Assembly: GCA_913009825.1 (NCBI GenBank)
Contig: CAJVYQ010000024.1
Span: forward strand, 1 to 64,000
Length of the DNA: 64,000 nucleotides
DNA from: an uncultured Deferribacteres bacterium
Lineage (GTDB): Bacteria > Zhuqueibacterota > JdFR-76 > DREG01
Reading direction: 5' to 3'
How positions within the stretch are numbered: position 1 is the stretch's first letter; the number at the start of each line of letters is the position of its first letter. The notes under the pieces are model-generated. The model saw nothing but the letters and a program-made list of their open reading frames with translations. It was not told the DNA's origin and did no database searches. Below are positions 1 through 63,362 of the stretch, piece after piece. Position numbers and translations under genes: made by a program.

Positions 1-170
1 AGAGCGCAAAGGAAGCGGATTTGTTCAAAAAACTAAAGTGTTACGGTATTGTCACTACTCAGGCAGCCCGCGAAAAACTCAAAAAAAAACAGGAAAAAAG
101 TTAGATGAGATCATTCGATTGTTTCGTGTGCTTTCTGCCTGTGTCAGACAGACGTGAGCTGAATAGTTAC
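1..170 (+). mobile_element. Right part of a 348-bp MITE-like element (copy A)
   Basis: Nearly identical to the right half of the elements at 5497-5844 and 40479-40826, ending in the same GCTGAATAGTTAC terminus at 170. The left half lies outside the window. It contains the arm of an internal palindrome built on the 'cgcagagacgcagagagc' word seen complete in the other copies. The short reading frames in it are not convincing genes. Confidence 0.85.
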
Positions 171-5496: not shown

Positions 5497-5844
5497 TTAA
5501 CTATTCAGGTTGACCGCTAATATCGCTAAAAAACGCGAATCGTTAACTATTTTGTCCTATTCGAATGATTCGTGTAATTCGCGGGCTGAACAGGCAGACG
5601 ATTTTTTCAATTTCTCTGCGCCCTCCGTGTCTCTGCGTTAAAAAAACAAGCGCTTTAAAACGCAGAGACGCAGAGAGTGCAAAGGAAGCGGATTTGTTCA
5701 AAAAACTAAAGTGTTACGGTATTGTCACTACTCAGGCAGCCCGCGAAAGACTCAAAAAAAAAACAGGAAAAAAGTTAAATTAAATCATTCGATTGTTTCG
5801 TGTGTTTTCTGCCTGTGTCAGACAGACGTGAGCTGAATAGTTAC
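5497..5844 (+). mobile_element. 348-bp MITE-like element (copy B)
   Basis: Ends are TTAACTATTCAGG and CTGAATAGTTAC in inverted orientation. The flanking 8-mers AAGAATTC (5489-5496) and AATAATTC (5845-5852) match at 7 of 8 positions, the expected footprint of an 8-bp target duplication. The internal sequence closely matches the copy at 40479-40826 over its whole length and includes a palindrome around 5630-5670 (ctctgcgttaaaa / ttttaaaacgcagag). No transposase is encoded. Confidence 0.85.
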
Positions 5845-9040: not shown

Positions 9041-9099
9041 CTCTCAGCCCCGTTGGTTCACAACAGGGCGGCATGGCAGAGATTGAGTGTTTTCTTTTT

Positions 9100-9187
9100 A
9101 GCCCGCCTGAGCCCTTCGTCAAGCTCAGGATAAACTCAGTCGAAGGCTTTCTGCACATCAAACAATAAGCATACCTATAGTAGTTAC
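9100..9187 (-). repeat. Truncated copy of the 156-bp GTAACTACTCAGGTATGC element
   Basis: Read on the minus strand, this matches the left part of the element at 46517-46672 (GTAACTACT..GGTATGCTTATTG, then TTCGACTGAGTTTATCCTGAG). It ends abruptly near 9100, so it is a fragment. Confidence 0.65.
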
Positions 9188-9230
9188 CATTAGTATTTGA
9201 ATGAAATCTTTCTTTTCGTTCAAGCACTAA

Positions 9231-11623: not shown

Positions 11624-12042
11624 ACCTGAATCGAGCGATTCTATTGTCATTCCGTAGGAATCTTGTTGGTTTAGTGCACAGAACTAACAAGATTTTTTCC
11701 CGCCTGTGGCCGGGCAGGCAGAATAACAAAACTCCCTGGGTAATACCTCACTTACGGGTTGATAATAAAATGCAATCAGTACCAAAAGATTCATGTTCTG
11801 TTTACATCGGGTTTTGATGCTGCTCATCTAATGTTCTGTAACCCCAAATAGCACACGGATTACGCGGATGACACAGATACACACGGATAAAATCTGTGAA
11901 AATCAGTGTGATCCGTGTCATCCGTGTTCTGTTTACTATTTTGGTTGAATAGATATAATAACATAAACAAATATTCACACCAATAAGTGAGGTGTTACCT
12001 CCCTGGGTGGTTATTGCAAGCTAAGAATCGCTCAATTAAAGT
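11624..12042. mobile_element. ACCTGAATTGAGCGATT-family element, interrupted by another element
   Basis: The left end ACCTGAATCGAGCGATTCT is mirrored by AAGAATCGCTCAATTAAAGT at the right. The inside matches the copy at 40838-40960 (GTCATTCCGTAGGAATCTTG, and GGGTGGTTATTGCAAG near the right end). Removing the nested 259-bp element and one 8-bp duplication leaves about 152 bp. Confidence 0.8.
11740..11998. mobile_element. 259-bp GTAAC-ended element nested in a second element, 8-bp duplication
   Basis: Left end GTAATACCTCACTTA, right end AAGTGAGGTGTTAC (inverted). The flanks carry a perfect 8-bp direct repeat CTCCCTGG (11732-11739 and 11999-12006). Removing the element plus one repeat restores the sequence expected from the uninterrupted copy at 40838-40960. 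It contains the palindrome ACACGGAT..ATCCGTGT (about 11870-11930). No protein is encoded. Confidence 0.9.
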
Positions 12043-16074: not shown

Positions 16075-16193
16075 ACCTGAATGAAGCGATTCTCTTGTTT
16101 TTGACCTTGTTTTTGTTATTAAACGGATTTTCATTTTTAATACAAATACGGCCGGCGATTCAGCGAATCGCCCTACAATCGCTCTATTCAGGT
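16075..16193 (-). mobile_element. 119-bp ACCTGAAT-family element, inverted orientation
   Basis: Ends ACCTGAATGAAGCGATT and AATCGCTCTATTCAGGT. The inside (ttgaccttgtttttgttatt; atacggccggcgattcagcg) is the reverse complement of the copies at 28347-28465 and 34715-34833. No coding capacity. Confidence 0.85.
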
Positions 16194-28346: not shown

Positions 28347-28465
28347 ACCTAAATTGAGCGATTGTAGGGCGATTCGCTGAATCGCCAGCCGTATTTGTAT
28401 TAAAAATGAAAATCCGTTTAGTAAAAAAAACAAGGTCAAAAACAAGAGAATCGCTTAATTAAGGT
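28347..28465 (+). mobile_element. 119-bp ACCTGAAT-family element overlapping the wzc stop codon
   Basis: Ends ACCTAAATTGAGCGATT and AATCGCTTAATTAAGGT; the inside matches the 34715-34833 copy almost base for base. The right terminus reads into the 3' end of the wzc gene (28455-30623): its last codons and TAA stop (28455-28457) lie inside the terminal repeat. Confidence 0.88.
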
Positions 28466-34710: not shown

Positions 34711-34837
34711 TTAAACCTGAATTGAGCGATTGTAGGGCGATTCGCTGAACCGCCGGCCGTATTTGTATAAAAAATGAAAATCTGTTTAGTAAAAAAAACA
34801 AGGTCAAAAGCAAGAGAATCGCTCAATTCAGGTTTAA
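34711..34837 (+). mobile_element. ACCTGAAT-family element with extended perfect ends
   Basis: Ends TTAAACCTGAATTGAGCGAT and ATCGCTCAATTCAGGTTTAA are perfect inverted repeats of at least 20 bases. The inside matches the 28347-28465 copy. It lies between the AsnB-type gene start (34674) and the stop of the ATPase gene (34842). No protein encoded. Confidence 0.88.
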
Positions 34838-39029: not shown

Positions 39030-39182
39030 ACCTAAACTGAGCGATTCGCAACCAGGCATTGCCACCTAATACGTGTACTGTCATTCAGCAGGAATCTTGT
39101 TGTTTCATTGCTTGATAATGACAAGATTCCTCCCCGCCTGCAGCGGACAGGCTGAATGACATGAGAATCGCTTAGTTTAGGA
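39030..39182. mobile_element. 153-bp element with ACCTRAAYTGAGCGATT ends
   Basis: Ends ACCTAAACTGAGCGATTC and GAATCGCTTAGTTTAGGA. The inside holds a GTCATTCAGCAGGAATCTTG segment similar to the 40838 and 11624 copies, with inverted CAGGAATCTTGTTG / CAAGATTCC arms. It belongs to the same terminal-repeat family but a longer subtype. Confidence 0.75.
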
Positions 39183-40478: not shown

Positions 40479-40826
40479 TTAACTATTCAGGTTGCCCGCT
40501 AATATCGCTAAAAAACGCGAATCGTTAACTATTTTGTCCTATTCGTATAATTTCGTGTAATTCGCGGGCTGAATAGGCAGACGATTTTTTCAATTTCTCT
40601 GCGCCCTCCGCGTCTCTGCGTTAAAAAAACAGGCGCTTTAAAACGCAGAGACGCAGAGAGCGCAAAGGAAGCGGATTTGTTCAAAAAACTAAAGTGTTAC
40701 GGTATGGTCACTACTCAGGCAGCCCGCGAAAGACTCAAAAAAAAACAGGAAAAAAGTTAGATGAGATCTTTCGATTGTTTCGTGTGCTTTCTGCCTGTGT
40801 CAGACAGACGTGAGCTGAATAGTTAC
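40479..40826 (+). mobile_element. 348-bp MITE-like element (copy C) with perfect 8-bp target duplication
   Basis: Ends TTAACTATTCAGG and GCTGAATAGTTAC, flanked on both sides by AAATTAGT (40471-40478 and 40827-40834). The sequence is nearly identical to the copy at 5497-5844 and to the partial copy at 1-170. The internal palindrome around ctctgcgttaaaaaaa / tttaaaacgcagag could fold. No transposase. The clean duplication implies a fairly recent insertion. Confidence 0.92.
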
Positions 40827-40837
40827 AAATTAGTTTA

Positions 40838-40960
40838 ACCTGAATTGAGCGATTCTAATGTCATTCCGTAGGAATCTTGTTGGTTTAAAGCACAGAACCA
40901 ACAAGATTCTTCCGGAATCTTTGGGTGGTTGTTTCAAGTAAAGAATCGCCCAATTTAGGT
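40838..40960 (+). mobile_element. 123-bp ACCTGAATTGAGCGATT-family element
   Basis: Ends ACCTGAATTGAGCGATTCT and AGAATCGCCCAATTTAGGT. The inside carries the hairpin ATCTTGTTGGTT / AACCAACAAGAT. It is the uninterrupted counterpart of the copy at 11624-12042. It sits 11 bases after the 348-bp element. Confidence 0.82.
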
Positions 40961-45766: not shown

Positions 45767-45926
45767 TTAACTATTCAGGTGTTTTCTTTCAATCTTTTTC
45801 GCCTTGCCGTGAACGACAAGGCTAAGAAATGAAAGGGCGCTAAAGCGTCCTATTTACGATAGCATCCTTCAGGATGCTTTCATGTCTTAGCCTGAGGGTT
45901 CACTCTCAGGCGACCTGAATAGTTAC
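45767..45926. mobile_element. 160-bp element nested in another element, perfect 8-bp duplication
   Basis: Ends TTAACTATTCAGGT and ACCTGAATAGTTAC. Both flanks carry GCTTATTG (45759-45766 and 45927-45934). The surrounding sequence (CTCAGGTATGCTTATTG, then TTTGATGTAGAGG) is the left part of the 46517-type element, so this is an insertion into an older element. The inside has GGCGCTAAAGCGTCC and CATCCTTCAGGATG hairpins. Confidence 0.9.
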
Positions 45927-46516: not shown

Positions 46517-46672
46517 GTAACTACCCGGGTATGCTTATTGTTCGATGTGCAGGAAGCCTTCGACTGAGTTTATCCTGAGCTTGTCGAAGGGCTCAGGCCG
46601 GCTTGAATAGCCATGCTGAGTGGATTCGAAGCATGATTACAACTAATTCATAGAGCATACCTGAGTAGTTAC
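46517..46672. mobile_element. 156-bp GTAACTAC..GTATGC element with 8-bp flanking repeat
   Basis: Ends GTAACTACCCGGGTATGC and GCATACCTGAGTAGTTAC. Flanking octamers GCTGAAAA (46509-46516) and ACTGAAAA (46673-46680) match at 7 of 8. The inside carries the palindrome CCTTCGACTGAG..CTTGTCGAAGG. Fragments of the same element lie at 9100-9187 and around 45743. Confidence 0.85.
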
Positions 46673-47950: not shown

Positions 47951-48068
47951 ACCTGAATTGAGCGATTGTAGGGCGATTCGCTGAATCGCCAACAGAATTT
48001 ACACTAAAACCATAAACCCGTTTGGTAACAGTAACAAACTTAAAACAAAAGAATCGCTCAATTCAGGT
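47951..48068 (+). mobile_element. 118-bp ACCTGAATTGAGCGATT-family element
   Basis: Ends ACCTGAATTGAGCGATT and AATCGCTCAATTCAGGT. The first 40 bases match the 28347 and 34715 copies (TGTAGGGCGATTCGCTGAAT) while the middle has diverged. It lies in the gap after the CDF gene; the rest of that gap (to 48267) shows nothing else beyond a short inverted CCTCCCTTCG / CGAAGGAGGG pair. Confidence 0.82.
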
Positions 48069-63266: not shown

Positions 63267-63362
63267 GTAACTATTCAGGTAGATTTAAGGCCACCCTCAA
63301 GGGGGGTACGGGGAGTGTAAAACAACTGCCAATATAATTCCTATTGTATCCTGAAGAGTTAC
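63267..63362. mobile_element. 96-bp GTAACTATTCAGGT element
   Basis: Left end GTAACTATTCAGGT, right end ATCCTGAAGAGTTAC. Flanks GATAATAT (63259-63266) and AATAATAT (63363-63370) match at 7 of 8. The inside carries CCACCCTCAAGGGGGGTACGG. The smallest member of the GTAAC-ended group here. Confidence 0.75.

Follow-up and report, generated by a model that had tools for sequence, protein, structure and literature searches.

The stretch of DNA analysed here (the window) comprises positions 1 to 64,000 of contig CAJVYQ010000024.1 from an uncultured Deferribacteres bacterium. It features a 348-bp repeat at 40479..40826 that was described in an original prediction, made from the letters alone, as a miniature inverted-repeat transposable element (MITE) with a palindrome inside. 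The 348-bp element is probably a non-autonomous MITE of the IS66/ISBst12 type, and its interior a cargo of "beat" hairpins of the kind that flanks GxxExxY genes. GxxExxY genes encode proteins of about 125 amino acids (aa) from the PD-(D/E)XK nuclease family with a Cas4-like fold. Genomes, contigs and loci are designated by G, C and L numbers, and the genome that contains the window is G000 (5.1 Mb, 123 contigs, 96% complete). The element and its copies in the window are as follows.

40479..40826, + strand: 348-bp MITE copy with an 8/8 target duplication; 40 scored places in the genome
40471..40478, no strand: left target duplication AAATTAGT, abutting exactly on 40479
40827..40834, no strand: right target duplication AAATTAGT, abutting exactly on 40826
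40479..40490, + strand: left terminal inverted repeat TTAACTATTCAG (family form GTAACTATTCAG)
40815..40826, - strand: right terminal inverted repeat (CTGAATAGTTAC on the + strand)
5497..5844, + strand: second 348-bp MITE copy, flanked by AAGAATTC and AATAATTC, 7/8 duplication
1..170, + strand: right part of a third copy with its right end at 170; the window edge cuts the rest

Copies, ends and probable transposase partner

The duplications claimed in the original prediction are present as described: the octamer is identical on both sides of the copy at 40479-40826, the copy at 5497-5844 features a 7-of-8 match, and a partial copy opens the window. The window copies are 96–97% identical in ungapped blocks, which supports the recent movement that was proposed for them. 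A check of genome-wide copy number and divergence, also proposed, revealed at least 40 relatives of the 348-bp element in its own genome with 93–100% identity, 32 of which are at least 310 bp long and 8 of which are 243–265 bp long. This count is a lower bound because only 40 of 319 candidate places were scored. The other 35 rows of the search match the palindrome part alone (query 115-192), and nearly all of these are the palindrome's other strand.

The 30 best copies were read, of which 28 are full and 2 are cut by contig ends. The target duplication is 8/8 in 17 of the full copies, 7/8 in 6 and worse in 5. The resulting 23 of 28 copies at 7/8 or better compare with a mean of 1.3 and a maximum of 5 of 28 for permuted pairs, and support the identification of the element as a MITE. 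The left-side octamers of the copies read have an A+T content of 83%. The ends of the 28 full copies are mostly GTAACTATTCAG...CTGAATAGTTAC; the first base is G in 25, A in 1 and T in 2, the latter being both window copies. With G as the first base of the family, the ends form a perfect 12-bp inverted repeat, GTAACTATTCAG, which corrects the original prediction. With up to one mismatch allowed, the window contains the end word TAACTATTCAG 10 times versus 0.91 expected, a number reached by none of 100 shuffles, and the exact word is found 405 times (202+203) in the 5.1-Mb genome versus 2 (1+1) for the reversed control. Pairs of these ends with duplications of at least 7/8 number 37 and span 92–586 bp (window, 20 stretches and 30 short own-genome loci, with nested and neighbouring composites counted). 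No pair of the same ends with a matching duplication was found at 600–5000 bp in the sampled DNA of the genome. The sub-families of about 102, 157–160 and 348 bp feature common ends and unlike interiors.

The terminal inverted repeats start with GTAAC, as in the ISBst12 group of IS66. The IS66 family is present in 21 of 99 genomes, and 30 IS66 loci taken from relatives were examined. Three of these loci (L085, L087 and L104), all from other genomes of the phylum, feature MITE-like ends around the IS66 gene that are 1508–1525 bp apart and deviate at no more than one position per 12-bp end. L104 fits the autonomous relative that had been suggested as a search target: its ends are nearly the same (one of 12 bases differs at one end) and it is flanked by a perfect 8-bp duplication, ATTTTTTG. 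L085 and L104 each carry a single open reading frame (ORF), of 476 and 484 aa, respectively, and their proteins are IS66 transposases (NCBIfam NF033517). In L084 and L086 a single end is visible, as the contig stops short on the opposite side, and in G078 a MITE-type end is located 112 bp ahead of an IS66 gene fragment.

ISDge4 from Deinococcus geothermalis belongs to the ISBst12 group of IS66. An excerpt of PMC12898284 reports that ISDge4 encodes a single 449-aa transposase, has the ends 5'-GTGACTACTCAGCA and 5'-GTAACTGCTCAGCA, and was seen to move, with an 8-bp direct repeat at the new insertion. The present family resembles the group, as far as that excerpt describes it, in its similar ends and 8-bp duplication, and a single ORF is common to ISDge4 and the gene-bearing relatives. 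The window element differs in that it is 348 bp long and lacks a transposase gene, whereas the relatives found are about 1.5 kb. Because the ends, the duplications, the gene-bearing relatives and ISDge4 agree, the 348-bp element is filed as an IS66/ISBst12-type MITE. Its movement is probably driven in trans by an ISBst12-group IS66 transposase encoded in a single ORF, which would read GTAACTATTCAG-like ends and make 8-bp duplications at A+T-rich sites. Taken alone, the MITE is an ordinary IS66-type mini-element, though from an unusually rich set.

There are some observations that count against this assignment. No IS66 transposase gene was matched in G000 by Pfam PF03050 or by a profile built from relatives, so the partner is unseen in the element's own genome. 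The original prediction had named a transposase-bearing relative with a different duplication length as the contrary case; the duplication of L104 is 8 bp long, and L085 and L087 are without any matching duplication (7 and 6 of 8 positions mismatched). Additionally, the IS66 gene of L087 is broken over two frames. Contigs C15, C29, C98, C105 and C121 of G000 start inside MITE copies (cut at base 1), and the end word is located at 110–126 from the contig start in C1, C3, C8 and C12. Since contigs start in or shortly before the end of MITE copies, multi-copy insertion sequence elements may be absent from the assembly. The IS66 transposase gene was presumably lost from the genome or left unassembled.

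Beat hairpins inside the element and around GxxExxY genes

The inner palindrome, CGCAGAGACGCAGAGA, is real as predicted, with a fold of -39.8 kcal/mol versus -20.0 kcal/mol in shuffles (z -6.1). The interior of the element is made up of the following features.

40495..40522, + strand: module A, left arm of a AATTCGTG-type beat hairpin (CCCGCTAATATCGCTAAAAAACGCGAAT); by eye like the arms at GxxExxY gene L161
40550..40568, - strand: module A, right arm (ATTTCGTGTAATTCGCGGG on the + strand)
40569..40583, - strand: altered inner end CTGAATAGGCAGACG
40597..40622, - strand: module B, left arm, with CTCTGCG beats on the + strand
40642..40667, + strand: module B, right arm, with the three beats CGCAGAG/CGCAGAG/CGCAAAG; aligned to the 84-bp hairpin of L320
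40707..40728, + strand: inner end-like stretch GTCACTACTCAGGCAGCCCGCG

As judged from the altered inner end CTGAATAGGCAGACG, the left part of the 348-bp MITE may contain a shorter element, comparable to the 92-bp element of L055. The CGCAGAG palindrome belongs to the cosmopolitan "beat" repeats, which have the unit CRCNRAK and usually three beats. The whole 348-bp element was not found in 98 other genomes among the scored candidates (at most 7 per genome), and on the same candidates 20 of the 98 genomes match only query part 93-197, the palindrome. Three loci of G063 (L134, L135 and L136) feature, by eye, CGCAGAG arms in repeats with other ends, TACAACGTTAAG. A search of 8 loci returned no Rfam match at the gathering score. 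The claim that the palindrome word occurs in many unrelated bacteria proved right, and arms of this kind flank GxxExxY genes. Inverted palindrome words around a GxxExxY gene in two genomes (L149 and L142) led to a flank test across phyla.

The flank test used the best 80 of at least 581 stretches encoding relatives, which were obtained by a contig scan with 23 proteins; some fetched loci overlap, e.g., L064 and L149, or L142 and L266. Alignment A3 contains 62 of 76 open proteins, hand-picked, and its 58 placeable rows represent 15 phyla (NCBI names), with two rows from Methanobacteriota. Beats were defined as CRCNRAK with a spacing of 8–11, two or more, pointing inwards. Inward beat arms surround the GxxExxY gene on both sides at 66 of the 80 loci, on one side at 11 and on neither at 3. 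Same-contig control windows feature inward arms on both sides in 0 of 137 cases and on one side in 10, and of the 80 GxxExxY loci, 4 have outward arms on both sides and 16 on one side. Three beats are found in 111 of 143 arms, which mostly start with TT[CA]ACC and end at medians of 32 and 21 bp from the matched part of the gene. The commonest word is common to both arms at 56 of the 66 loci, versus a mean of 12.5 and a maximum of 23 in 5000 permutations. Beat arms are also located at a Methanothrix GxxExxY gene (L192).

Alignment of the inverted flanks gave a score of at least 28 for 69 of 79 loci (one short-flank locus was left out), compared with 3 of 138 same-contig windows and 0 of 79 shuffles. 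Direct flank repeats with a score of at least 40 occur at 13 of 79 loci and in none of 138 windows. Measured over 200 bp from the ORF ends, the inverted score reaches 28 for 37 of 73 GxxExxY ORFs versus 4 of 260 other ORFs; this lower effect is, in our opinion, due to early-start ORFs that overlap the arm. For KSB1 relatives and the like, the same score is reached at 35 of 49 loci versus 0 of 90 windows, in a set assembled by hand from 30 best-per-genome loci, the 17 of 20 others that were not repeats and two loci of G000. A control that paired the left flank of one locus with the right flank of another (mean 21, 99th percentile 42) was set aside as contaminated by recurring words. Paralogues in one genome use different words, judged by eye in G033, G039 and G005. 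For the 60 of 62 A3 proteins whose loci have two beats on a side, the protein tree requires 25 word changes versus 34.9 in shuffles, and none of 400 shuffles was as low.

All 62 A3 proteins match PF13366 (PDDEXK_3), and the sole other Pfam match is a weak one to Cas4 in 11 of the 62. Two proteins were scored against TIGR04256 and gave 138.8 and 128.1 bits versus a cut-off of 35. The residues E29, D69, E79, K81, Q93 and Y97 are invariant in the 62 proteins and fit a PD-(D/E)XK core with the QxxxY motif. A structure model (predicted local distance difference test score 96.1) is best matched by the Cas4 protein SSO0001 (4ic1_G) with Z 9.5, a root-mean-square deviation of 3.0 and 99 aligned residues, and the next rows are at Z 7.5 or lower. 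Foldseek E-values are weak, the best being 1e-3, and a sequence search found no solved relatives at E of 1 or below. The likeness to Cas4 thus comprises the PD-(D/E)XK core with QxxxY, SSO0001 as the best structural match and the weak profile matches. Cas4 proteins feature four conserved cysteines that hold an iron-sulphur cluster. The GxxExxY protein differs in that it is shorter (127 versus 202 aa) and has no four-cysteine set, with C35 and C64 as the sole cysteines in columns conserved at 90% or more. According to an excerpt of PMC8934634, a gene annotated as GxxExxY was assigned to cas4 by a different program. Flanking repeats are unmentioned beside the name GxxExxY in the excerpts of two papers that name it, and PF13366 is named in an excerpt of a paper on Arctic algae. 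PDDEXK_3 and TIGR04256 appear in no paper of the literature text search.

Of 99 genomes, 75 contain GxxExxY genes, the largest number of matches in a single genome being 22, and some of the genes contain stops. One query protein matched none of 50,697 phage records and 6 of 72,556 plasmid records; profile A3 matched 3 loci in viral contigs, and three proteins gave no PHROGs match. G000 has six GxxExxY matches, of which two are halves of one broken gene and one is a short fragment under the cut-off. L320 (G000:C6) features an intact GxxExxY gene between two identical 84-bp hairpin copies in direct orientation, with the arms CTCTGCG...CTCTGCGTT and AACGCGGAG ACGCAGAG GCCGCAGAG. This 84-bp hairpin aligns along its length with module B of the 348-bp MITE with two short gaps. 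Loci L154, L319 and L321 adjoin tandem arrays of 100–162-bp hairpin units in 2.9 to 5.0 copies, and the GxxExxY genes L276 and L265 are also located beside tandem arrays of hairpin units in this size range. Tandem arrays did not hold up as a general feature across phyla, since among the 80 loci only L224 and L238 have them within 140 bp of the gene, though several hand-picked KSB1 loci have them.

In G033, a GxxExxY gene that contains one stop codon and an accompanying hairpin form a cassette (L281) between two genes that were read by eye as nuo. The same two presumed nuo genes are, as read, 4–13 bases apart without the cassette in G081, G040, G030 and G013. The cassette-free junction in these four relatives indicates gain or loss at one site within the genome family. 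The dnaE-side cassette of G033 (L280) was rejected as a clean case of an empty site because G056 has another insert there, which resembles a RelBE pair by eye only. Arm words of one kind, the only kind counted, number 729 over 82 genomes versus 70 for the control.

Other repeats in the window

Additional MITEs and repeat families are found in the window.

45767..45926, + strand: 160-bp sister MITE with the same ends, another interior and the duplication GCTTATTG; sits inside a copy of another repeat
63267..63362, + strand: 96-bp sister MITE with the same ends and a 7/8 duplication
11624-12042, 16075-16193, 28347-28465, 34715-34833, 39030-39182, 40838-40960, 47951-48068: second MITE-like family (ACCTGAATTGAGCGATTCT ends)

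The host repeat of the 160-bp sister MITE has empty paralogues at 46517 and near 9095-9190 (minus strand), which feature a single GCTTATTG. A third family of repeats, located at 46517-46672 and near 9095-9190 (minus strand), has GTAACTACTCAGG-type ends that enclose a CTTCGAC/GTCGAAG hairpin. The second MITE-like family accounts for seven end pairs in the window. Its member at 40838 starts 3 bases past the right duplication of the 348-bp element, and its member at 11624 contains CACGGAT-type beat arms (11854-11888 and 11892-11926). Composites of neighbouring or nested MITEs are found at L107:428-852, L113:7539-7766, L115:7540-8125 and L055. In L107, a single perfect outer duplication surrounds a terminus of one element together with the opposite terminus of the 348-bp element, as though the two different elements had moved as a unit.

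Possible origin of the hairpins

The interior of the MITE is probably a cargo of two cosmopolitan beat-type hairpins, and module B is the kind of hairpin that flanks GxxExxY genes in the same genome and across phyla. These genes lie between inward arms of usually three beats, with a word that is mostly common to the two arms of a gene and different between genes. Such a cassette may be a small mobile or formerly mobile gene unit, of which the solo hairpins would be gene-less derivatives or excision scars. The MITEs of G000 would have picked up hairpins of this kind and would now amplify them. It is tentatively proposed, with a confidence just short of even, that the GxxExxY gene and its beat arms form an undescribed minimal mobile cassette of Bacteria and Archaea. 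Its Cas4-like nuclease would recognise its own arms, insert between genes without duplication, and leave or mobilise solo hairpins. The cosmopolitan CGCAGAG, CACGAAG, CACGGAT and similar hairpins of bacterial genomes would then be gene-less derivatives that were captured and amplified by other MITEs.

Several results argue against the proposed cassette. The nuclease may move it, yet no movement was observed, and the target duplications of GxxExxY cassettes show no excess over permuted pairs at 65 loci. Hairpins fetched via the palindrome are mostly solo (35 loci, some at the same place). Among the 35 loci, only two places (L064/L149 and L142) contain a GxxExxY gene, and by coordinates the unfetched G058:C235 adjoins one too. 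The correlation between arm count and GxxExxY gene count is only moderate over 82 genomes (Spearman 0.34, p 0.002). The 9 genomes without a GxxExxY gene do not differ significantly in arm count (p 0.13), and G050 has 10 arms with no gene found. The 80-locus set leans to one part of the GxxExxY family because it contains the best-scoring relatives only. The flanks of different loci reach the inverted score of 28 in 181 of 632 pairs, and align across loci because words recur between them. Phylum also tracks the protein tree (30 changes versus 39.5), so the fit of the word to the tree may reflect host kinship.

Movement by something else, e.g., an HUH transposase, with the GxxExxY genes as passengers like the MITEs, is a somewhat unlikely explanation of the hairpins. 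Solo hairpins do outnumber gene-bearing ones, and the missing target duplication is what is known for repetitive extragenic palindromes and their associated tyrosine transposases (REP/RAYT). A passenger gene is harder to reconcile with the arm words: both sides share theirs in 56 of 66 loci, paralogues within a genome have, by eye, different ones, and the words track the protein tree. No HUH (Y1) transposase was found at the repeats, as all 62 scanned proteins are PF13366. The REPIN-RAYT system features, in an excerpt of PMC3116915, hairpin-forming short inverted doublets, a small gene close to its own word, hairpins that are non-autonomous, and extragenic sites. The GxxExxY system works like it, in that inverted doublets are found both around the gene and in its absence, and is not a member of it. 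The GxxExxY gene encodes a PD-(D/E)XK protein and not a tyrosine transposase, and its arms are beats 8–11 bp apart, usually three, in many bacterial phyla.

It is improbable that the arms are expression signals, i.e., terminators or attenuators of a resident nuclease gene, instead of the ends of a mobile unit. RNA hairpins can arise from inverted arms, and the short distance of the arms from the gene would suit such a role, but the cassette is absent from the same junction in four relatives. There are also several copies per genome, some genes carry stops, and protein identity to one query is 57–76% across phyla. A native origin of the palindrome within the IS66-type element, with its likeness elsewhere due to convergence of short G+C-rich words, is very unlikely. 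The full 348-bp copies that were read do contain the palindrome part, and MITEs often harbour stem-loops, but sister MITEs with the same ends have other interiors. Moreover, the word is found in the other-ended repeats of G063 (by eye) and at GxxExxY genes of many phyla, and the L320 hairpin of the same genome aligns along the palindrome's length. Spread of the 348-bp copies by another transposase family that uses GTAAC ends and 8-bp duplications would explain the missing IS66 gene in the assembly, but it is hardly credible since relatives pair nearly these ends with IS66 genes and ISDge4 was seen moving with such ends (excerpt of PMC12898284).

The words CGCAGAGACGCAGAG, GTAACTATTCAG, CTCTGCGTCTCTGCG, CACGGATTACACGGA and CACAAAGGCACAAAG occur in no paper of a text search that covers few subscription papers, so the link may nonetheless have been published. 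A paper on fish environmental DNA contains CACGAAGACACGAAG and GAAGGCACGAAG, and one on mouse liver contains GAAGGCACGAAG. The link between GxxExxY genes and hairpins, if true, would explain a class of repeats whose words are in no fitting paper of that search. It would also provide a role for a nuclease family that is named only by its motif, and would represent a REPIN-like system in which no HUH transposase takes part. The observed link suggests a hitherto undescribed type of mobile gene cassette as the source of these widespread hairpins.
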